Positions 41,155 through 60,681 of a stretch of 64,000 bases of DNA are shown here, piece after piece. Origin of the DNA: Parapedobacter pyrenivorans (GTDB lineage Bacteria > Bacteroidota > Bacteroidia > Sphingobacteriales > Sphingobacteriaceae); NCBI RefSeq assembly GCF_014636865.1, contig NZ_BMER01000001.1, forward strand, positions 2,158,718 through 2,222,717, given 5' to 3'. The notes beneath the pieces are model-generated. The model saw only the letters and a list, made by a program, of their open reading frames with translations, was not told the DNA's origin and did no database searches. The stretch's first letter is position 1, and each line of letters begins with the position of its first letter. A program made the translations under genes and the position numbers.

Positions 41155-41187
41155 AGTGTCCTGACAGCTGTCAGGACGCTTTTTTTG
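41155..41187 (+). terminator. Terminator after the DUF3127 gene
   Basis: Self-complementary gtcctgacag/ctgtcaggac (41158-41177), extended by one outer pair, followed by seven T residues from 41180. 34 bases after the stop. Confidence 0.85.
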
Positions 41188-46727: not shown

Positions 46728-47957
46728 TTATTCGCTACGCTGGCTCCAAAGCAGGCCAGTCAGGCCGATCAGGATAATGGCGGCGGCGAAGGCGAGGAGT
46801 AATGGGATATGCTTGATGTAGACGTACGTCAATCCTGCAATCCCTTGTGCCATCAGCAACAGCTCATTCAATACGATGCCTGCCACCAAGATGAATGTCG
46901 AAACGAAGGCTGGCCGATTGCTTGTCAGCGACCGGTTCAGATAGGCATAAGCGATGATAAATAGACTGATGATAACCAACAGTACCAGGTGCAAATAACC
47001 GATGACAATGGGGCGAAAACCGTAACTCAACTGACTCAGGGATGGAATGACCGAAAGCCCTTGGAGCGTGAATTTGATGGTCGCTGCGGTAACGACTCCG
47101 AGAAACAGCCATTTGGAAACCATCGGGATGTGGTGCCGGAATAAAGGCAATTTAATCGCCCAAGCACGTATCCAGGCAATCCATGCGGTGCCTTGCCCAA
47201 CTACCGCGGCCACGGCAATCGCGTACAACCAGCCGGGCATATCCCACCAAAGTATGGAAAGCAGGTAGGTGACGGGACAAGTCCATGCAAACAGCCAGTA
47301 TACCATCCTCGTATGGGTTAGGGTTACTTTCTTTTGAATAAGCCAATGCTGTATCAACCCCATACACGCGAAGAAGAACCAGCCATTGTACTGGAAATGC
47401 AGGTAAAAGTATACCGAGGCAAGCTGTAACCGGGAATCCGTATTGTTGGACGCCATTAAGTAGGCCAGAAAAAAGGTGCCGATTGATGAGAGCACAAGAA
47501 AGACTAGCGCTGCCCGAAACCAACGATAGCCGCTTGATTTGCGATCGGCCTTTGTCATATCCCGCCACGATAAGACCGCGAAACCATACGAGATTACAAC
47601 CGAAACAGATGAGGTGAAGATGGAAAATGGGCCGTAGCCCTGAAAAAAGAAGCCAACCAGCATGCCGTAGCTCGCGAGCAGGTTGGCTACGAGAAAGACT
47701 TGGTACTTCAAGGAAAGGTTTTCATGGCTTTTACGGTTAGCAATAACGGCGGCCATCAATACCATCAGCGCATGGGATACCCAGCCTGAAAAGGCAAAGT
47801 GGGAATGCGCGTGAAGTAGAAATTTTTGATTGATCGCGGGTAGGGGAAGCAGCATTTTCAGCCGCATCAACATGCCCAGTGCGGCAACCAATAAGAGGTT
47901 GGATAACGCCAATATCATCCATTGCCGTACCGTGATATGTCGGAGCCTGGCAATCAT
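46728..47957 (-). CDS. Polytopic membrane protein with heme-copper-oxidase-like His motif
   Basis: 409 residues from the ATG at 47957, with about twelve hydrophobic segments and no signal peptide. Paired His in the second helix (FLLHAHSHFAFSGWVSHALMVLMAA), a HFQYNGWFFFACMGLIQHWLI segment and HLVLLVIISLFIIAYAYLNR recall the low-spin heme ligand region of heme-copper oxidase/NO reductase subunit I, but the full CuB/active-site histidine set is not evident. Similar proteins occur in Bacteroidota denitrification loci without assigned function. The ATGA overlap with the Crp/Fnr gene upstream makes the two one unit. Confidence 0.7.
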   Translation of the reverse strand: MIARLRHITVRQWMILALSNLLLVAALGMLMRLKMLLPLPAINQKFLLHAHSHFAFSGWVSHALMVLMAAVIANRKSHENLSLKYQVFLVANLLASYGMLVGFFFQGYGPFSIFTSSVSVVISYGFAVLSWRDMTKADRKSSGYRWFRAALVFLVLSSIGTFFLAYLMASNNTDSRLQLASVYFYLHFQYNGWFFFACMGLIQHWLIQKKVTLTHTRMVYWLFAWTCPVTYLLSILWWDMPGWLYAIAVAAVVGQGTAWIAWIRAWAIKLPLFRHHIPMVSKWLFLGVVTAATIKFTLQGLSVIPSLSQLSYGFRPIVIGYLHLVLLVIISLFIIAYAYLNRSLTSNRPAFVSTFILVAGIVLNELLLMAQGIAGLTYVYIKHIPLLLAFAAAIILIGLTGLLWSQRSE

Positions 47958-48562
47958 ATGCCATCGGCCGGAATAAAAACTTTCCCTTTCACGATACATA
48001 ATTTGTCTTCCTGTTGCATCTGCTTGATTGCCCGAATAACGGTTTCTACCCGCAGGCCGGCCATATTGGCCAGCTGTTGGCGGGTAACCATCAGCCGGTT
48101 GCAGTCCTTGCAGATGAGTTTACCCTGCCGATTGAAGTAATCGATGAGGGCTGAAAGAACGGCCTGTGGATGGTTTTTGGACAGGGCGTGAAGCACGAAG
48201 AATTTGAAGCGCAGGTGTGCAACCAGCGCCTTGGTGAATGCGAGGTGGATATCAGGCCGTTCGGTCAATAATTCATGGAAGGATGCGGTGCATAACCGTA
48301 ATATCGTACAAGGTGAGTCGGCCACGGCACTGGCTGCGTAGGGCTCCCCATCGAAGAGGGGAAATTCACCGAAACTTTCGCCGGGTTCGACAATCTTGTG
48401 GAGTATTTCCTTTCCATTATCGTCGAAATTTGACCACCTGACCCTACCCGCAACCAATTGATAGTAGAATGCCGCCGGTGCACCTTCGTTGAAGATGGTT
48501 TCGCCTGCTTCGGCATGTCGGTAAGTCGCCCCTTTTTTCAGCAGTAGATTGATGTCGATCAT
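47954..48562 (-). CDS. Crp/Fnr-family transcriptional regulator (DNR/NnrR-like)
   Basis: 202 residues: cyclic-nucleotide-binding-like beta roll (about 12-100, GETIFNEGAPAAFYYQLVAGRVRW, EPGESFGEFPLFDGEPY), dimer helix, then a Crp-type helix-turn-helix (about 158-182: VTRQQLANMAGLRVETVIRAIKQM). The N-terminal Cys cluster of the oxygen sensor Fnr is absent, so a 4Fe-4S Fnr mechanism is unlikely; Cys are at 85, 91, 151, 154 and 189. In the recognition helix E173 and R177 are kept while Ile replaces the Ser/Gly at the specificity position, consistent with a non-standard site such as TGAC-N4-GTCA. NO or redox sensing for the nos genes is inferred from location. Confidence 0.9.
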   Translation of the reverse strand: MIDINLLLKKGATYRHAEAGETIFNEGAPAAFYYQLVAGRVRWSNFDDNGKEILHKIVEPGESFGEFPLFDGEPYAASAVADSPCTILRLCTASFHELLTERPDIHLAFTKALVAHLRFKFFVLHALSKNHPQAVLSALIDYFNRQGKLICKDCNRLMVTRQQLANMAGLRVETVIRAIKQMQQEDKLCIVKGKVFIPADGI

Positions 48563-48612: not shown

Positions 48613-48677
48613 CAAAGGTAGCGGCCTAAGGGCAGGCGTCGTATGATCCTGGTCATCCTTACAGGTGACGACGATCA
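48613..48677 (-). promoter_or_regulatory. Crp/Fnr gene promoter with two tandem operator-like sites
   Basis: Minus-strand -7 box TACCTTTG (48613-48620). Upstream of it lie TGATCCTGGTCA (48644-48655, centre 48649.5) and TGACGACGATCA (48666-48677, centre 48671.5): one-mismatch matches to TGAC-N4-GTCA, exactly 22 bp apart. The proximal centre is 36.5 bp from the end of the -7 box, the place of a class II activator site near -41. No -33 element is present. Autoactivation by the adjacent Crp/Fnr protein is inferred. Confidence 0.65.
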
Positions 48678-48855: not shown

Positions 48856-49320
48856 ATGAAAAAGTTACTGGTTTTACTTACGCTGGGGATAGCGCTGTAT
48901 GCATGCTCCCAAAGCGGAAAGCAAGGTTCGGAAAATAATTCAAGGGCTTCGATTGAGCAACAACCGTCGGATTATGATCCTAATCGTGGGTTGGGAAAGT
49001 TTGACAACGTGGAAGTAGGAGACAAGTTGGATGTCGCGATGGCTAAGGATGGAAAGGTGATCGCTGACCTGAAATGCGCAAGCTGCCATAAATATACCGA
49101 TGAACGCTTGGTTGGACCGGGTTGGTCCGGTGTGACCGCGAAACACCAACCGGCATGGATCATGAACTTCATTACCAACCCCGATCCCATGATTGACAAG
49201 GATCCTGAATTGCAGGCCCAGCTTGAAATCTGTTTGGTGCGTATGCCAAATCAGAACCTTTCGGACGAGGATGCTCGCAAGATCCTCGAATTCATGCGTG
49301 AGAACGATGGTGTTAAATAG
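48856..49320 (+). CDS. Mono-heme c-type cytochrome lipoprotein
   Basis: 154 residues with lipobox LYAC (Cys about 17). A single heme motif CASCHK at about 75-80, and a downstream Met (VRMPNQNLSDEDARKILEFMREN) gives the sixth ligand, typical of cytochrome c class I. It lies 38 bases before nosZ in the same direction and is the likely electron donor to it, as in clade II nos clusters where membrane-bound cytochromes c serve this role. Confidence 0.9.
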   Translation: MKKLLVLLTLGIALYACSQSGKQGSENNSRASIEQQPSDYDPNRGLGKFDNVEVGDKLDVAMAKDGKVIADLKCASCHKYTDERLVGPGWSGVTAKHQPAWIMNFITNPDPMIDKDPELQAQLEICLVRMPNQNLSDEDARKILEFMRENDGVK

Positions 49321-49358: not shown

Positions 49359-51329
49359 ATGAAACCAAAACAATATCTCCTATGGATGGCTGCCGCAACC
49401 GCGGTATCGCTATCCTTCAGTGCATGTAGACCCAAAGGTGCGGGAAGCGCTGTCTCTGGAAATGCGGCACAACGGACGTATGTACCTCCCGGGCAGTATG
49501 ACGAATTTTATACGTTCACCTCGGGCGGATTCAGCGGGCAGATGAGTGTGTATGGACTGCCCAGTGGTCGCCTGTTCCGCGTGATTCCCGTCTTCTCGGT
49601 AGATCCCGAGAAAGCATGGGGATTCAGCGAGGAAACGAAACCTATGTTGATGACATCCCATGGTTTCGTTCCTTGGGATGACCTGCACCACATCGAATCA
49701 TCTTTTACCGACGGAATGCCCGATGGCAAGTGGATATTTGCCAATTCCAACAATACCCCACGTTTGGCGAGGATAGACCTCACAACTTACCGGACATCTG
49801 AGATTATTGAGATTCCCAACACGGGCGGTAATCACTGTTCACCATTTACCACTGAAAATTCGGAATATGTCATTGCGGCAACTCGCTTCAGTGTTCCACC
49901 GGATGGACCAGCCAGTGATGTGCCGATCGACTCCTACAAGGAAAATTTTAAGGGACATATTAGTTTTGTGAGCGTGGATAAAGAGACAGGCGAGTTTGAT
50001 ATCGCTTTCCAGTTAAAAACCCCAGGGCTGAACTTCGACTTGTCCAGTGCCGGAAAAGGCGTGTCCAATGGCTGGCTCTTTATCAGCTGCTACAACTCGG
50101 AGCAGTCCCACACGTTGTTGGAAGTCAACGCATCTCAGAATGACAAGGACTTCATCATGGCTATCAACTGGAAAAAAGCCGAAGAATATTTCAAAGCCGG
50201 AAAAGGTACAAAGCAAACCAATGTACGTTACGCACACAATAAGTATGACGAACATACCCACACAGCTACCCATGAAATCAAAACCGAAGTCACCGTACTG
50301 GACGTCGCCGATTTTGATGACTTGGCGTATTTGATACCTTGCCCGAAATCACCCCATGGCGCTGACGTGAGTCCAACAGGCGAGTATATCGTAGGTAGTG
50401 GGAAATTAGCAGCGTTGATTCCGGTATTTAGCTTTGAGAAACTGCAGAACGCCATCGGCAATAGTGACTTTGAAAGCGAGCGCTACGATGGCATTCCGGT
50501 TATGAAGTACGAATCTGCCTTGCACGGTGAAGTGGAAAAACCCGGGTTGGGCCCGTTGCACACGGAGTTTGACGACAAAGGAAACGCCTATACCTCGTTC
50601 TTCGTCTCTTCAGAAGTGGTGAAATGGGACATCAAAACACTGGAAGTCCTCGATAGGCAGCCCACCTACTATTCCGTTGGTCACCTGATGGTAGCTGGAG
50701 GAAATTCGAAAAAACCTTATGGCAAGTATTTGGTTGCTTACAACAAAATCACCAAAGACCGATTCCTGCCTACCGGACCGGAGCTCGCCCACAGTGCGCA
50801 ACTGTTTGATATCAGTGGTGACAAAATGGAGCTGTTGCTCGACTTCCCGACCATCGGCGAGCCACATTATGCACAGTCATTACCAGCTGATTTGATTAAG
50901 GATAAATCGTTGAAGATATACGATATCAATAACAACAACCACCCCTTCAAGACGAATGGTGAGGCTGAGGCGCGTGTAGAGCGTGATGGAAATATTGTAC
51001 GTGTATACATGACGACAATCCGTTCTCACTTGACTCCCGATGTCATCGAAGGTATACACCAGGGCGATGAGGTGTACTTCCATATAACCAATATTGAGCA
51101 AGATTGGGATATGCCACACGGATTTGCGATCAAAGGTGCGGGTAATTCGGAATTGCTGGTTATGCCCGGTGAAACGCAAACAATCAAATGGGTACCTGAC
51201 CGGGTAGGCATTTTCCCATTCTATTGTACTGATTTCTGTTCGGCCTTACACCAAGAGATGTCGGGATATGTTAGGGTATCGCCCAAAGGAAGTAACGTAG
51301 CCCTTACATCCTACACAGGTAATAAATAG
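49359..51329 (+). CDS. nosZ: Nitrous-oxide reductase, clade II type
   Basis: Copper enzyme that reduces N2O to N2 as a terminal electron acceptor. 656 residues. The leader is Sec/lipoprotein-like (MAAATAVSLSFSACRPK, Cys about 23) rather than the Tat signal of clade I proteins, which marks the clade II form common in Bacteroidota. The seven-bladed CuZ domain includes WDDLHHIESSFTDG, NTGGNHCSPFTTENSEY, PKSPHGADVSPTGEYIVGSGKL and LGPLHTEFDDKGNAYTSFF. The C-terminal CuA domain has FYCTDFCSALHQEMSGY near residues 620-636, and its Trp/His partners (DWDMPHGFAI). It is followed by nosL, nosD, nosF and nosY. Confidence 0.97.
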   Translation: MKPKQYLLWMAAATAVSLSFSACRPKGAGSAVSGNAAQRTYVPPGQYDEFYTFTSGGFSGQMSVYGLPSGRLFRVIPVFSVDPEKAWGFSEETKPMLMTSHGFVPWDDLHHIESSFTDGMPDGKWIFANSNNTPRLARIDLTTYRTSEIIEIPNTGGNHCSPFTTENSEYVIAATRFSVPPDGPASDVPIDSYKENFKGHISFVSVDKETGEFDIAFQLKTPGLNFDLSSAGKGVSNGWLFISCYNSEQSHTLLEVNASQNDKDFIMAINWKKAEEYFKAGKGTKQTNVRYAHNKYDEHTHTATHEIKTEVTVLDVADFDDLAYLIPCPKSPHGADVSPTGEYIVGSGKLAALIPVFSFEKLQNAIGNSDFESERYDGIPVMKYESALHGEVEKPGLGPLHTEFDDKGNAYTSFFVSSEVVKWDIKTLEVLDRQPTYYSVGHLMVAGGNSKKPYGKYLVAYNKITKDRFLPTGPELAHSAQLFDISGDKMELLLDFPTIGEPHYAQSLPADLIKDKSLKIYDINNNNHPFKTNGEAEARVERDGNIVRVYMTTIRSHLTPDVIEGIHQGDEVYFHITNIEQDWDMPHGFAIKGAGNSELLVMPGETQTIKWVPDRVGIFPFYCTDFCSALHQEMSGYVRVSPKGSNVALTSYTGNK

Positions 51330-55288: not shown

Positions 55289-56236
55289 ATGATAAAAACA
55301 GCAATATTAGATGTTACCCGGATTGAACCTCGGCTGAAACATCCGACGATTTTTGAGCACTTCGACGCGTTGGAGCAAGGAGAAAGCTTCATTATCCATA
55401 ACGACCATGATCCGAAGCCGCTTTATTACCAGTTATTGGGAGAACGGGGCAATAGCTTCACATGGGAATACCTGGAGGCAGGGCCCCGGCATTGGCAAGT
55501 GCAGCTAGCCAAGCCCGCGGCCGCGGAAGAAACTGTAGGCGAGATTGCCGCCAAAGACATGCGGAAGGCTGAGGTTTTCAAGCGGCTGGGTATCGACTTT
55601 TGTTGTGGGGGTAAGCAAACCCTCAAGGAAGCAATCGATCAAGCGGGATTGACGGAGGAGCAGGTGCAAGCGGCTTTGGACCGATCGGAATCGGTGGCCG
55701 GAGGGCAAGTTACACACGATTTTGATTCCTGGGATTTGAGTTTCTTGGCGGACTACATCTACAATGTCCACCACAAGTATATCCGGGAAAGCGGGCCGAT
55801 CATCGAACAGCTTGCCGAGAAAGTCGCTTCGCGTCATGGCACTTCGCATCCCGAACTTGTTGGATTGGCAAATGGCTTAAAGGGGCTCATGGACGAATTG
55901 TATAGCCATGTACAGAAGGAAGAAGGGGTACTGTTTCCGGCAATTAAAGAGCTGGCAAGTAGCGGGAGCGGACAAACAAGTATTGACATCAAAGGCCCCA
56001 TTCACATGATGGAAGCCGAGCACGGGTCGGCCGGCGATGAGCTCAAGACGCTGCGGAAACTGACAAAAGACTACGAGCTTCCGGCCGATGCCTGCAATTC
56101 ATATACCTATCTTTTCCAGAAGATCAAGGAATTCGAAAGCGACTTGTTCCAGCATATCCACTTGGAAAACAACATCCTGTTTCCAAAAGCCTTGAAGCTT
56201 GAAAAGGAACGCTTTAGCGGTGCGGGAACCTGGTAA
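55289..56236 (+). CDS. Iron-sulfur cluster repair di-iron protein Ric with fused DUF2249
   Basis: 315 residues in three parts. Residues 8-74 are a DUF2249 domain (DVTRIEPRLKHPTIFEHFDALEQGESFIIHNDHDPKPLYYQL); residues 80-135 are the ScdA N-terminal domain with the paired Cys (IDFCCGGKQTLKEAI, C105-C106); residues 150-305 are the hemerythrin-like di-iron domain with His161/His162 in YIYNVHHKYI, Glu211, His239, and H-x2-H...E near 288-292 (HIHLENNILFP). YtfE/ScdA/DnrN proteins repair nitrosylated or oxidised Fe-S clusters and release NO. The fusion is unusual. Position after nosY fits protection during N-oxide respiration. Confidence 0.92.
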   Translation: MIKTAILDVTRIEPRLKHPTIFEHFDALEQGESFIIHNDHDPKPLYYQLLGERGNSFTWEYLEAGPRHWQVQLAKPAAAEETVGEIAAKDMRKAEVFKRLGIDFCCGGKQTLKEAIDQAGLTEEQVQAALDRSESVAGGQVTHDFDSWDLSFLADYIYNVHHKYIRESGPIIEQLAEKVASRHGTSHPELVGLANGLKGLMDELYSHVQKEEGVLFPAIKELASSGSGQTSIDIKGPIHMMEAEHGSAGDELKTLRKLTKDYELPADACNSYTYLFQKIKEFESDLFQHIHLENNILFPKALKLEKERFSGAGTW

Positions 56237-56248
56237 GGAGGAAAAGCA

Positions 56249-57085
56249 ATGGTGATCAACAAAAACACCCGGGTCGCTGAAGTCATCAGGGCGAACGCAG
56301 ATAGCATCGCGGCAATTGCAGCGCTGGCGAAACCCTTACGCAAATTGAAGAATCCGTTGTTGCGCCGGGTGATGGCCCCGCGGGTCACGTTGGCTGAAGC
56401 AGCTGCGATTGGCGGCTGCTCCCTGGCAGCGATCCGGGCAGCGTTGGAGCCTTTGGGCTTTCAGTTTGTAGAGGAGGAATTAGCCGATAACCGTAAGGAG
56501 GAGGGAAAAGAGCAGCGTCCGGACTGGTTGGCTGCGGGGGATGAAGCTTCGGTTGCTGTTTTTGATGTACGTGAGCTGATTGAATCGGGCAATGATCCAT
56601 TGAAGGCGATTGTGCAGCGTTACCGCGCATTGCCGATGGGTAACCTGCTGTGCATCATCAACACGTTTATTCCCTATCCCTTGATTAATTTGCTGGGAAA
56701 GCAAGGGGCTGAAACATTCGTGGAAACCGTGGCTGATCAGGTGTATCATACATGGTTTTTCAAGCAGGGTGTATCGGAGAGGAAGTTGGAAGCGCCTCAA
56801 TCGGATCGCGTAATGATGCACGACAGCCCATCGTTCGGCCGGGTACTGGCAGCGTATAACGAGACACAACTTGTTTGGCTCGATGTCCGACACCTGTCGA
56901 TGCCGCAACCGATGGAGACTATCCTCGAGACATTGCCTACGCTGGTGGCCGGCCAAGCGCTCTATGTGCTGCATAAGCGGGTACCGCTGCACCTGTTGGA
57001 AGAACTTACCGATATGGCTTATCGGACGCATATCCACGAAGCGGGGGAGGGAGACGTAAAACTGCTGATTGTAAGGCGTAGCTAG
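56249..57085 (+). CDS. DUF1858-DUF2249-DUF2249 protein
   Basis: 278 residues. The N terminus (1-75: VINKNTRVAEVIRANADSIAAI and VTLAEAAAIGGCSLAAIRAALEPLGF) is DUF1858-like, with a lone Cys near 57. Two DUF2249 repeats follow: about 97-180 (VAVFDVRELIESGNDPLKAIVQRYRALPMGNLLCIINTFIPYPL) and 205-278 (LVWLDVRHLSMPQPMETILETLPTLVAGQALYVLHKRVPLHLLEEL). A strong Shine-Dalgarno (AAGGAGG) precedes the ATG. It starts 12 bases after the Ric gene and shares DUF2249 with it. These domains cluster with nitrogen-oxide metabolism genes in other bacteria; biochemistry is unknown. Confidence 0.85.
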   Translation: MVINKNTRVAEVIRANADSIAAIAALAKPLRKLKNPLLRRVMAPRVTLAEAAAIGGCSLAAIRAALEPLGFQFVEEELADNRKEEGKEQRPDWLAAGDEASVAVFDVRELIESGNDPLKAIVQRYRALPMGNLLCIINTFIPYPLINLLGKQGAETFVETVADQVYHTWFFKQGVSERKLEAPQSDRVMMHDSPSFGRVLAAYNETQLVWLDVRHLSMPQPMETILETLPTLVAGQALYVLHKRVPLHLLEELTDMAYRTHIHEAGEGDVKLLIVRRS

Positions 57086-57118: not shown

Positions 57119-58399
57119 ATGGTAGCGCTCAATATCGGAAGGGCCCCTCACCGCGTGGCTGTATTGCCGTTTTATGGCACGGGAGCCTTGTTTTTTGCCT
57201 TGCTGACCGTGCTGCTTTTCGTGGCTGCCGGTGAATTGACCGGGCATCACTTCAGTCCCCATTTGCTGGCGATTGTCCACGCCGCAGCATTGGGTTGGGG
57301 TACCATGATCATCTTCGGGGCAGCCTATCAGTTACTGCCAGTTATCTGCGAACGTGATTTGTATAGCGTACCGTTTGCTGTCGCTTCGTACGTCATGCTC
57401 ACCGTTGGTGCCCTGCTGTTAGTCTGGTCATTTTGGGTATTTGAAGTCGGCGTATTGATGATTACCGGTGGTGCACTGGTCGTAGTTGCCGCCGTGCTCT
57501 ATGCCATCAATACCTGTGCGACCGCAGCGCGGCAACAACGGGTCAACGTCCAGCAGGTATTCCTGGTGAGTTCGGCTTTGTGGCTGTTTATTACCGTCAT
57601 CATCGGGCTGTTACTGACTATCAACCTAAGCCATACGTTCATTCCGCGCAATCACCTCGATATGCTGAAACTTCATGCGCATGCAGGGCTTGCAGGGTGG
57701 TTCCTTCAGTTGATAACCGGCGTGAGTACCAAGTTGGTACCGATGTTCCTATTGGGTAAGTCGAAACGGGAATGGCTACTTTATACCGCATTGGTACTAC
57801 AGAATATCGGATTGATCTTGTTCCTCGCCGATGGTTACTTCAATCCCATCACGGCAAAAATGCTGATTTATGCAGGTATTGTCGCGTTGGGTACGTTGGC
57901 GTGGCTGATTTACCTGGCCGACGTGTACCGCAACCGCCTGCGTCGGAAAATAGAGCCGTTGATGAAGCATACGGCTATATCGTTCCTCAACTTGGCGGTG
58001 GGGTTTGTGCTACTACCGGTGGCCTTCTACTTCTCGGATAGCCGTTGGGTATCGCTGTATGGTACGTTCCTGTTCTTAGGTTGGATCACGGCCATTATCT
58101 TGGGCACGACCTTCAAAACATTGCCCTTCATTGTTTGGACCAGCCATTACCGGCACCTCACGGGCAAAGTGATCGTACCCCTGCCGAAGCAATTGTATAA
58201 TGAGCGGCTTATCGGCTACCAGTTTTACCTGTATCTATCGGCATTCGTATCGCTGATTATCGGGCTGATCGCCGACTGTGCGCCGGTAGTCCGCGTTGCG
58301 CTGATTTTGTGGATGATTTTGGCGGCGGTGTATGTCGCTAATGTGGCCAAGACAATTTTTCACAAACCCATGATTACAGATGGAAATAAAACTCAATGA
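57119..58399 (+). CDS. Second polytopic membrane protein, cytochrome-oxidase-subunit-I-like
   Basis: 426 residues, about twelve membrane helices. His-rich segments HLLAIVHAAALGWGTMIIFGAAYQLLPVI (helix 2) and NHLDMLKLHAHAGLAGWFLQLITGVSTKLVPMF (helix 6) look like repeated H-x-H-x-G-W heme-ligand motifs. Homologues in Bacteroidota are labelled cytochrome C oxidase subunit I or NnrS-like; I see no complete CuB center, so oxidase or NO reductase activity is not claimed. It resembles the 46728-47957 protein in general layout. It overlaps the DUF59 gene by 20 bases. Confidence 0.7.
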   Translation: MVALNIGRAPHRVAVLPFYGTGALFFALLTVLLFVAAGELTGHHFSPHLLAIVHAAALGWGTMIIFGAAYQLLPVICERDLYSVPFAVASYVMLTVGALLLVWSFWVFEVGVLMITGGALVVVAAVLYAINTCATAARQQRVNVQQVFLVSSALWLFITVIIGLLLTINLSHTFIPRNHLDMLKLHAHAGLAGWFLQLITGVSTKLVPMFLLGKSKREWLLYTALVLQNIGLILFLADGYFNPITAKMLIYAGIVALGTLAWLIYLADVYRNRLRRKIEPLMKHTAISFLNLAVGFVLLPVAFYFSDSRWVSLYGTFLFLGWITAIILGTTFKTLPFIVWTSHYRHLTGKVIVPLPKQLYNERLIGYQFYLYLSAFVSLIIGLIADCAPVVRVALILWMILAAVYVANVAKTIFHKPMITDGNKTQ

Positions 58400-58709
58400 T
58401 CCGTTTGCTGCGGAATTGGTTAAAGCGCAGACGGCACTGATGCAGGTGATTGACCCCGAACTGTACGTCAACGTCGTCGACCTGGGCTTGGTCTATGGCG
58501 TCGATTTTACCGATGCAACGAAGGTGAAGGTGACAATGACCCTATCTACGCCGGGCTGCCCCATGGGAGAAGCGATTACCGGCGGCGTGAAAAATGCGCT
58601 CACGGCCGCCTTCTCCGACCGCGAAACGGAGGTCGAGGTCGTGTGGGAGCCTCGGTGGAACTACCACATGATTACCGATGAAGGAAAAGCGCAATTGGGA
58701 CTGGAATAG
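58380..58709 (+). CDS. DUF59/MIP18-family metal-sulfur cluster assembly factor
   Basis: 109 residues. DUF59 core: LMQVIDPELYVNVVDLGLVYGVDFTDATKVKVTMTLSTPGCPMGEAI with the conserved Cys (residue about 60) and EVEVVWEPRWNYHMITDEGK, as in SufT/PaaD-like proteins. It probably helps build or insert Fe-S clusters, in keeping with the Ric repair protein three genes upstream. Starts inside the 3' end of the membrane protein gene. Confidence 0.9.
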   Translation: MEIKLNDPFAAELVKAQTALMQVIDPELYVNVVDLGLVYGVDFTDATKVKVTMTLSTPGCPMGEAITGGVKNALTAAFSDRETEVEVVWEPRWNYHMITDEGKAQLGLE

Positions 58710-58728: not shown

Positions 58729-58792
58729 TGACGTCCGTCATTTCTGCTGATGACCAACGTCATCTTGCCTGGGTATGGAACCGCTAAATTTG
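58729..58792 (+). promoter_or_regulatory. Promoter with two perfect TGAC-N4-GTCA sites
   Basis: TGACGTCCGTCA (58729-58740, within the perfect palindrome ATGACGTCCGTCAT) and TGACCAACGTCA (58751-58762, within GATGAC-CAAC-GTCATC) are exactly 22 bp apart centre to centre. The -7 box TAAATTTG is at 58785-58792, with TTG at 58765-58767. The proximal site centre is 35.5 bp from the end of the box, equal within 1 bp to the promoter of the Crp/Fnr gene at 48613. Two perfect sites with this layout strongly suggest Crp/Fnr control of the gene that follows. Confidence 0.75.
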
Positions 58793-58845: not shown

Positions 58846-60681
58846 ATGAATACAGCCAATCAACATACCTTTCATATACCCGTAATGGGGTTGGGATTCA
58901 CGATCGATACGCCTTTGAAAGTGGCGCGGTTTGGGATATCGTCCGCGCTGTCCTTGGCGGACGACCACTTGGTGGAACAGATGCGTGAATGCCACGCAAG
59001 GGCATTCGATCGTCCCTTTAGTCCCATTTCACCTAAATCCGAAGACTATCGGGCTAAGCGGATCACGGCATACCTCAACCTGCTATACGATATTGTGGAT
59101 CAGCAGGTGTGCCAGCTACGTAGCAACCGATTTGAGGCGGGTAGCGATCTCACCCGCTATTTCGAATTGCTACCGGAAGGATCGCCATTGAGAAGCGAAT
59201 ACCTTACCATGTGCGCCAGCAGCGGCGAAGCGCGCGACCGACTAGCCATGGGCCTTCGCGCCGCTGTGAGGGCTGGGGCGATCGATGTGAATATCATGAC
59301 TAAGGTAGACAAAACCAATTACGCTCCGGATGGTACACCATTGCCGCCAGCGTATTCGGATGCATCGGCCGCATTGCGGGGGTTCGCCAGGAGCAGGCTT
59401 CGCTCGGCCGTCATTTTGTCGGCAGGATTGAATCCCCGGCTGTACAGTTATTTTGAAAATTTCGACGATTTCTTTCCGGATGAAGACGGCAGGCTTGCCA
59501 AGCGGATCATTTTGAAGGTCAGTGATTACCGATCGGCATTGATCCAAGGTAAACTGTTGGCGAAAAAGGGGCTCTGGGTGTCGGAATTCCGGATCGAGTC
59601 TGGCCTAAACTGTGGCGGGCATGCGTTCGTTAGCGACGGCGTATTGTTGGGACCAATCATGGAGGCGTTCAAAACGCAGCGTGATGCCCTGTATGGAGAA
59701 TTAAAGCGGCTATGCGAGGCTGCGCTTGCCGGTAAAAGCCGGCCGGGGTTCAAAACGGATCCCCAACAGCGCATCACGGTGCAGGGCGGAATCGGTACAG
59801 CTGGCGAAGACCGCTTCTTGTTGGATTATTATCAGTTGGATGGGACCGGCTGGGGTAGCCCCTTCCTGTTGGTGCCCGAGGCCACCAATGTCGATGAAGA
59901 TACGCTCCAGCAGTTAGCGAATGCGCAGCCCAGTGATTTTTACCTCAGTAATGCCTCACCGTTGGGCGTGCCGTTCCATAACTTCCGGCCGAGCAGTTCC
60001 GAGGAGCAGCGTAAATTTCGGATCGCCAAAAACCGCCCCGGCAGCCCGTGCCATAAGAAGTTCCTGTCTTTCAATACAGAGTTTACCGACAGGCCTATCT
60101 GCACAGCTTCCCGGCAGTATCAAAACCTGAAGCTCAACGAAGCGCGGATTAACAGTACCGATGAGCAGGCGTACCAAGAAGCCGCTGCCGCTATTGTGGA
60201 AAAAGACTGCCTATGTGAGGGGCTCGCTGCGCCGGCGGTGCTCGTCAACGATATGCCACCCAAGCACAACCTTAGGGCGGTAACGATATGCCCGGGCCCC
60301 AACTTGGCCTACTTCTCGAAAATAGTATCCCTGAAGGAAATGGTAGGGCATATCTATGGCAAAATCAATCTCTTGAACAATCGTTTCCGTTCAAACCTGT
60401 TCGTCAATGAGTTGCGGTTGTACATCACGTACCTAAAAAAGGAAATCGAGAAGCACCAGCACGACTTTACCGAAAAGCGAGATGCTTACTTCCGGACGTT
60501 CCGGGATAATCTCCTGCTCGGCATCGAATACTACCGATCCATCATGCCTTCGATGCAACCGTATGCCGAAACGAACATAGACGACATGAAGGCGGCCATT
60601 GCCGACGCGGAGCGCATCTTGCTTCAGCTGCCTGTTTTTTACGTTAAAAGCCAATCGTGCAGCCGCAAACCTGTCCGATAG
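58846..60681 (+). CDS. Uncharacterised protein with nitronate-monooxygenase-like barrel motifs
   Basis: 611 residues from 58846; 58816 is an alternative, but 58750 lies inside the second operator and is unlikely. No signal peptide or membrane segment. The start HIPVMGLGFTIDTPLKVARFGISSALSLADD, ESGLNCGGHAF (about 251-261) and ITVQGGIGTAGEDRFLLDYY (about 310-329) resemble the N-terminal strand, the AGGH motif and the FMN-phosphate GGI motif of nitronate monooxygenase/2-nitropropane dioxygenase TIM barrels. The region after it has conserved-looking Cys (402, 419, 455, 457, 482) in PGSPCHKKF, RPICTASRQYQ, KDCLCEG and TICPGPN, which could bind metal. The last 100 residues are helical. Reaction unknown. 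Confidence 0.8.
   Translation: MNTANQHTFHIPVMGLGFTIDTPLKVARFGISSALSLADDHLVEQMRECHARAFDRPFSPISPKSEDYRAKRITAYLNLLYDIVDQQVCQLRSNRFEAGSDLTRYFELLPEGSPLRSEYLTMCASSGEARDRLAMGLRAAVRAGAIDVNIMTKVDKTNYAPDGTPLPPAYSDASAALRGFARSRLRSAVILSAGLNPRLYSYFENFDDFFPDEDGRLAKRIILKVSDYRSALIQGKLLAKKGLWVSEFRIESGLNCGGHAFVSDGVLLGPIMEAFKTQRDALYGELKRLCEAALAGKSRPGFKTDPQQRITVQGGIGTAGEDRFLLDYYQLDGTGWGSPFLLVPEATNVDEDTLQQLANAQPSDFYLSNASPLGVPFHNFRPSSSEEQRKFRIAKNRPGSPCHKKFLSFNTEFTDRPICTASRQYQNLKLNEARINSTDEQAYQEAAAAIVEKDCLCEGLAAPAVLVNDMPPKHNLRAVTICPGPNLAYFSKIVSLKEMVGHIYGKINLLNNRFRSNLFVNELRLYITYLKKEIEKHQHDFTEKRDAYFRTFRDNLLLGIEYYRSIMPSMQPYAETNIDDMKAAIADAERILLQLPVFYVKSQSCSRKPVR

Follow-up and report, generated by a model that had tools for sequence, protein, structure and literature searches.

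Conserved tandem TGAY-N4-RTCA sites upstream of a predicted FMN enzyme gene near the nos cluster of Parapedobacter pyrenivorans and their candidate low-oxygen regulators

Two palindromes arranged in tandem upstream of P0002, a gene for a predicted FMN enzyme in Parapedobacter pyrenivorans, are conserved predicted sites for an Fnr-like activator, as judged from their sequence. Among the regulators encoded in the genome, we consider a system composed of a FixL-type haem-PAS kinase and a receiver-Crp fusion protein the probable main owner of this promoter at low oxygen, with some overlap by a Crp-type protein linked to the nos genes. Unless another contig or locus is named, positions below refer to the 64-kb window, i.e., the whole stretch of 64,000 nucleotides that was analysed.

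Results

Tandem sites and promoter of P0002

The intergenic region between the gene for a SufT/PaaD-like Fe-S assembly protein (58380..58709, plus strand; PF01883), which is the last gene 5' of the sites, and P0002 (58846..60681, plus strand) contains two plus-strand palindromes, the distal TGACGTCCGTCA at 58729..58740 and the proximal TGACCAACGTCA at 58751..58762, which follow each other at 22 bp from start to start. Read directly from the sequence, they are the two perfect TGAC-N4-GTCA repeats that had been described in a first-pass annotation of this DNA. Both have the palindromic TGA-N6-TCA core with a fixed spacer that is expected of Crp/Fnr operators. Further downstream, TAAATTTG at 58785..58792 (plus strand) represents a -7 box of the Bacteroidota sigma-A type, TAnnTTTG. 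In Flavobacterium psychrophilum, this box occupies positions -12 to -5 (PMC9723704), which places the predicted transcription start of P0002 near 58797 and the centres of the two sites at about -40.5 and -62.5. By this convention, with a start that is predicted rather than mapped, the proximal site falls at a class II position (about -41.5), and the earlier estimate of -41, recomputed from the position of TAAATTTG, was right. The mechanically called open reading frame of 643 aa begins at an ATG within the proximal site; homologs of P0002 start at 58846, which gives a protein of 611 aa.

The genome was scanned by pattern searches, with the reversed pattern as a control. TGACN4GTCA is found three times in the window versus 0.74 expected and 55 times genome-wide versus 33 for the reversed pattern, and because of this small difference a lone site constitutes weak evidence. 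The third perfect site of the window, TGACAGCTGTCA (41162-41173), is located in the gap ahead of 41289. The tandem TGACN4GTCA-N(8-12)-TGACN4GTCA has a single occurrence in the 5.9-Mb genome, in agreement with the initial view that a chance origin of the pair is unlikely. The relaxed pattern TGAYN4RTCA-N10-TGAYN4RTCA has exactly two perfect matches in the genome, both within the window, and none for its reversed control; four further places appear when one mismatch is allowed in the 22-bp pair pattern. The second perfect pair, which was first picked up with one mismatch allowed, lies about 10 kb away and consists of the distal site TGATCCTGGTCA (48644..48655), kept in relatives, and the proximal site TGACGACGATCA (48666..48677), both on the plus strand and with the same 22-bp spacing. 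It is situated in a divergent promoter between a Crp/Fnr-family gene (47954-48562) and the cytochrome c and nosZ genes. A regulon defined by strict TGACN4GTCA was dropped, since the genome-wide excess is small and the orthologs use TGAY-N4-RTCA. The motif proposed in the first-pass annotation is perfect at both P0002 sites but too narrow, the true motif being TGAY-N4-RTCA.

Conservation of the sites

The first-pass annotation had suggested comparing the promoter among related genomes. In five Parapedobacter species, an 84-bp stretch of the P0002 promoter can be aligned with no gaps, and conserved blocks within it are confined to the two TGA-N6-TCA cores and the -7 box: the half-sites of the distal operator are retained, the core of the proximal operator is invariant, and so is TAAnTTTG, at the same ungapped distance. 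Perfect sites are absent at two Parapedobacter homologs of P0002 with 56% identity (L027, L028). Among the 77 Bacteroidota orthologs of P0002 with enough upstream sequence, TGAYN4RTCA is present within 250 bp upstream in 57, compared with a mean of 1.5 and a maximum of 6 after shuffling. Other inner spacers gave 0-4 and scrambled half-sites 0-3 occurrences in the same orthologs, only the 4-bp spacer being enriched. Where a -7 box could be recognised, it is mostly found 34-35 bp or 57 bp (35+22) past the site start, so single sites correspond in position to one or the other member of the tandem.

These observations bear on the possibility that two TGACN4GTCA palindromes simply fell together, by chance or through coding constraint. 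Lone sites do exceed the reversed control mildly, but the pair is intergenic, its cores are conserved against diverged flanks in five species, a footprint that already contradicts chance, and the frequency of the motif ahead of orthologs is far beyond that obtained by shuffling; coincidence is thus extremely improbable.

Across 201 genomes of the family, counts added up by hand give about 206 perfect 22-bp pairs, compared with 2 matches to the reversed pattern. When any spacer from 0 to 30 was allowed, the 22-bp arrangement accounted for 55 of the 115 listed pairs, followed by 21 bp with 12; a single repeat array or a single coding sequence is the source of several of these 12. A TGAC-N4-GTCA array with 21-bp steps (G026:C15:285055-285402), likely a coding tandem repeat, inflates the latter count. 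Three genomes of one genus (g14: G164, G188 and G021), probably Mucilaginibacter, contain 12-19 perfect 22-bp tandem pairs, far above their relatives, perhaps reflecting a much expanded regulon with the same grammar.

Comparison with known operators

The tandem sites resemble the boxes of Fnr, FixK and FnrN (TTGAT-N4-ATCAA; TTGANCNNGATCAANG) in their spacing, TGA/TCA core and class II position, and the low-oxygen gene set is also alike (cbb3 oxidase, hemN). In contrast to the strict Fnr box, the sites described here read ATGAC-N4-GTCAT; the leading T is missing, the first flanking base of P0002 promoter sites being T in 2%. The fourth base is C or T about equally, and the TAnnTTTG promoter and the recurring 22-bp tandem are further differences. 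With respect to the DNR/NnrR and HcpR operators (CTTGATnnnnATCAAG; wyTTGACnnnnGTCAArw; PMC1274295), both P0002 sites are exact matches to the HcpR core TGACnnnnGTCA, and DNR boxes precede nos genes; however, the outer T/A are not retained and P0002 is a gene other than hcp. The sequence read by HcpR2 of Bacteroides, GTAACnnnnGTTAC, differs from the present sites. Crp/Fnr-type recognition, as first proposed from the form of the half-sites, agrees with the class II operators seen ahead of nos and microaerobic genes, both in this genome and in its relatives. That proposal had been made to depend on the presence of the motif at nos and anaerobic genes, and there it is indeed found, both here and in relatives.

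The nos-linked Crp/Fnr protein

The regulator adjacent to the second tandem pair, P0001 (47954..48562, minus strand), is a Crp/Fnr-family protein of 202 aa with the recognition helix GLRVETVIR; the FNR-type N-terminal cysteine cluster is absent from it. On the other side of the pair, the first gene 3' encodes a cytochrome c (48856..49320, plus strand) and is followed by nosZ (49359..51329, plus strand; TIGR04246, 906.9 bits) for the Sec-dependent (clade II) nitrous oxide reductase. Most P0001 orthologs have a CxxC motif (C151/C154) just ahead of the DNA-binding domain, a possible metal or redox site. The nos cluster also includes, at 55289-57085, genes for an iron-sulfur repair protein of the RIC/YtfE type (TIGR03652) and then a DUF1858/DUF2249 protein, which suggests that NO stress is handled within the operon.

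The first-pass annotation assigned the P0002 sites to P0001. As their sole owner, P0001 would include P0002 in the nos regulon and activate it in response to low oxygen, NO or N2O. Several facts speak for this scenario: the one perfect 22-bp tandem found elsewhere in the genome lies in the divergent promoter of P0001, an exact pair of this kind occupies the nos/regulator gap of 17 of the 30 P0001 orthologs, the recognition helix is VETVIR or VETIIR across all 30, and P0002 lies about 10 kb from the regulator gene in several relatives. The phylogenetic distribution argues against it. P0001 was detected in 30 of the 201 family genomes (E<=1e-30), whereas P0002 is far more widespread, being found in 246 of 300 genomes of the order, and tracks another regulator (see below). 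P. lycopersici has neither nosZ nor an ortholog of P0001, yet its P0002 (78% identity) is preceded by a perfect 22-bp pair and TAATTTTG. Outside the genus, the motif is present in the P0002 promoter in six of seven genomes with P0001 and in 21 of 33 without it. Since the sites do not vanish along with the regulator, P0001 is not required, the original assignment is not borne out, and exclusive control by P0001 appears unlikely. Nevertheless, P0001 may bind at the P0002 sites alongside the main owner.

The receiver-Crp fusion and the FixL-type kinase

The gene for a receiver-cNMP-HTH_Crp fusion (C1:2833333-2834394; L180:7334-8398) neighbours that of a FixL-type haem-PAS kinase in a region (L180; C1:2826000-2845000) that also contains hemN and genes for a CcoI-like ATPase and the cbb3 oxidase. 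FNR-like sites at C1:2834409 and C1:2839246 (L180:8410 and 13247), each with a 22-bp partner at one mismatch, occupy two gaps of this receiver-Crp/hemN/ccoI/ccoN region and represent two of the four additional places obtained with the relaxed pair pattern. The fusion is present in 276 of 300 genomes of the order, and 18 of the 20 listed genomes that lack it are also devoid of P0002 (Fisher p 1e-10 to 1e-16, a range set by four unlisted genomes and uncorrected for phylogeny). Among 80 loci, the neighbourhood within 10 kb of P0002 includes the receiver-Crp gene in 27 cases, the kinase gene in 28, ccoNO in 18 and nosZ in eight. P0002 therefore both co-occurs with and is linked to the fusion, as expected for a member of its regulon. 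The TGAY-N4-RTCA motif was also found in the promoters of ccoN (7/13), ccoI (7/10), hemN (4/15) and the kinase gene (5/15).

The PAS domain of the kinase matches FixL (E 6.5e-31) and retains the SRHDxY stretch, which in FixL holds the haem-binding histidine. By its sequence, the kinase is a FixL-type sensor, a haem-PAS protein with the proximal histidine, and is predicted to bind haem. The recognition helix of the fusion is NETISR, and that of Fnr is VETISR. The E and R of this helix contact TGA/TCA in Crp and Fnr, and both residues are present in the fusion as well as in P0001. The FNR cysteine cluster is absent from the fusion, which has cysteines only at positions 55 and 301. The arrangement resembles the FixL-FixJ-FixK cascade of Rhizobiales in the FixL haem-PAS kinase, the receiver domain, the Crp-type DNA binding and the cbb3 target. 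It differs in that receiver and Crp domains are combined on one protein with no separate FixJ output domain, suggesting that the FixJ and FixK steps have merged. Within the open-access literature, of which our coverage was incomplete, we found no account of this sensor-regulator pair in Bacteroidota.

In total, 15 cNMP-domain proteins are encoded in the genome, 12 of which were set aside as owners after inspection of their C-termini. Besides the fusion and P0001, a third Crp/Fnr paralog with the helix REVISR, encoded in a TauE/YeeE/MBL-rhodanese sulfur cluster (L181:2477-6693; in the same genome, C1:2864000-2878000), was retained as a weak candidate. TGAC-type sites are found ahead of three genes of this cluster (5052, 5935 and 6693), which may form a sulfur regulon of its own that shares the core motif. 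Assignment of an owner by base preference was abandoned, as sequence logos did not distinguish the nos, P0002 and cco promoters from one another.

Some observations count against ownership by the receiver-Crp fusion. Both perfect 22-bp pairs of the genome map to the nos region and one adjoins P0001, which leaves P0001 a place among the possible owners; P. lycopersici has further Crp-like proteins besides the fusion; and the paralog near the sulfur cluster has TGAC-N4-GTCA sites of its own. A related scenario, which overlaps with the one we favour, is that the fusion and the nos-linked Crp bind the P0002 operators equally, so that P0002 would be induced by low oxygen generally, with an additional increase upon activation of the nos operon. 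The same core motif and spacing occur near both regulators, and overlapping recognition by FixK and FnrN is known in Alphaproteobacteria (PMC4999443). On the other hand, equal sharing is superfluous for explaining the data and the helix residues differ (VIR versus ISR); we regard it, and the two-level induction that it entails, as a serious but somewhat doubtful possibility.

The product of P0002

No family in Pfam or NCBIfam matched P0002, and a comparison of its sequence with solved structures returned chance helical matches only. Its structure was predicted with a mean pLDDT of 72.6; residues 337-426 are unreliable, and the C-terminal half is poorly modelled. A fold search with this model retrieved the FMN TIM barrels of FabX, PfaD, FabK and nitronate monooxygenase, including 9jsy (VIA-align Z 16.4, rmsd 4.0, 293 aligned residues) and PfaD (Foldseek E 5e-6). 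P0002 is thus predicted from the model to share the fold of these enzymes. It also shares the GGH motif with Helicobacter pylori FabX, PfaD, FabK and nitronate monooxygenases, at about 16% identity. Within P0002 homologs the motif reads CGGH and H259 is invariant; from the motif, H259 would be the counterpart of the catalytic histidine of the family. Five C-terminal cysteines are invariant (C402/C419/C455/C457/C482) and may hold an Fe-S cluster. Their pattern does not reproduce the spacing of the [4Fe-4S] ligands in FabX, namely C300/C304/C308/C320 (PMC8626469).

Discussion

We propose the following mechanism for the P0002 promoter. At low oxygen, the FixL-type haem-PAS kinase would phosphorylate the receiver-Crp fusion, the most likely main owner, which would also serve the cbb3 oxidase and hemN. 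The two TGAY-N4-RTCA sites would each be occupied by a Crp-type dimer, with both dimers on the same side of the helix; the proximal one would adjoin RNA polymerase from its class II position and the other would lie two turns upstream. Together they would activate the sigma-A promoter with its TAnnTTTG box, leading to expression of P0002. The nos-linked Crp would read the same type of site at the divergent nos promoter and could share those of P0002.

On a broader scale, the data point, with a likelihood that we would place just short of even, to a phylum-wide low-oxygen regulon in Bacteroidota in which the FixL-type haem kinase and the fused receiver-Crp exert control at TGAY-N4-RTCA sites, frequently arranged as 22-bp tandems. 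A regular member of this regulon would be the P0002-type FMN enzyme, possibly responsible for an oxygen-independent lipid or redox step and placed beside the nos cluster in Parapedobacter. Clade II N2O reducers, P. pyrenivorans among them, occur in Bacteroidota, yet low-oxygen control is little described in this phylum. The candidate pair would unite the functions of FixL, FixJ and FixK in two proteins, and the motif, its spacing and this sensor-regulator pair make the regulon directly testable. The proposal also flags P0002, a widespread and conserved uncharacterised enzyme, as a possible part of the low-oxygen response.
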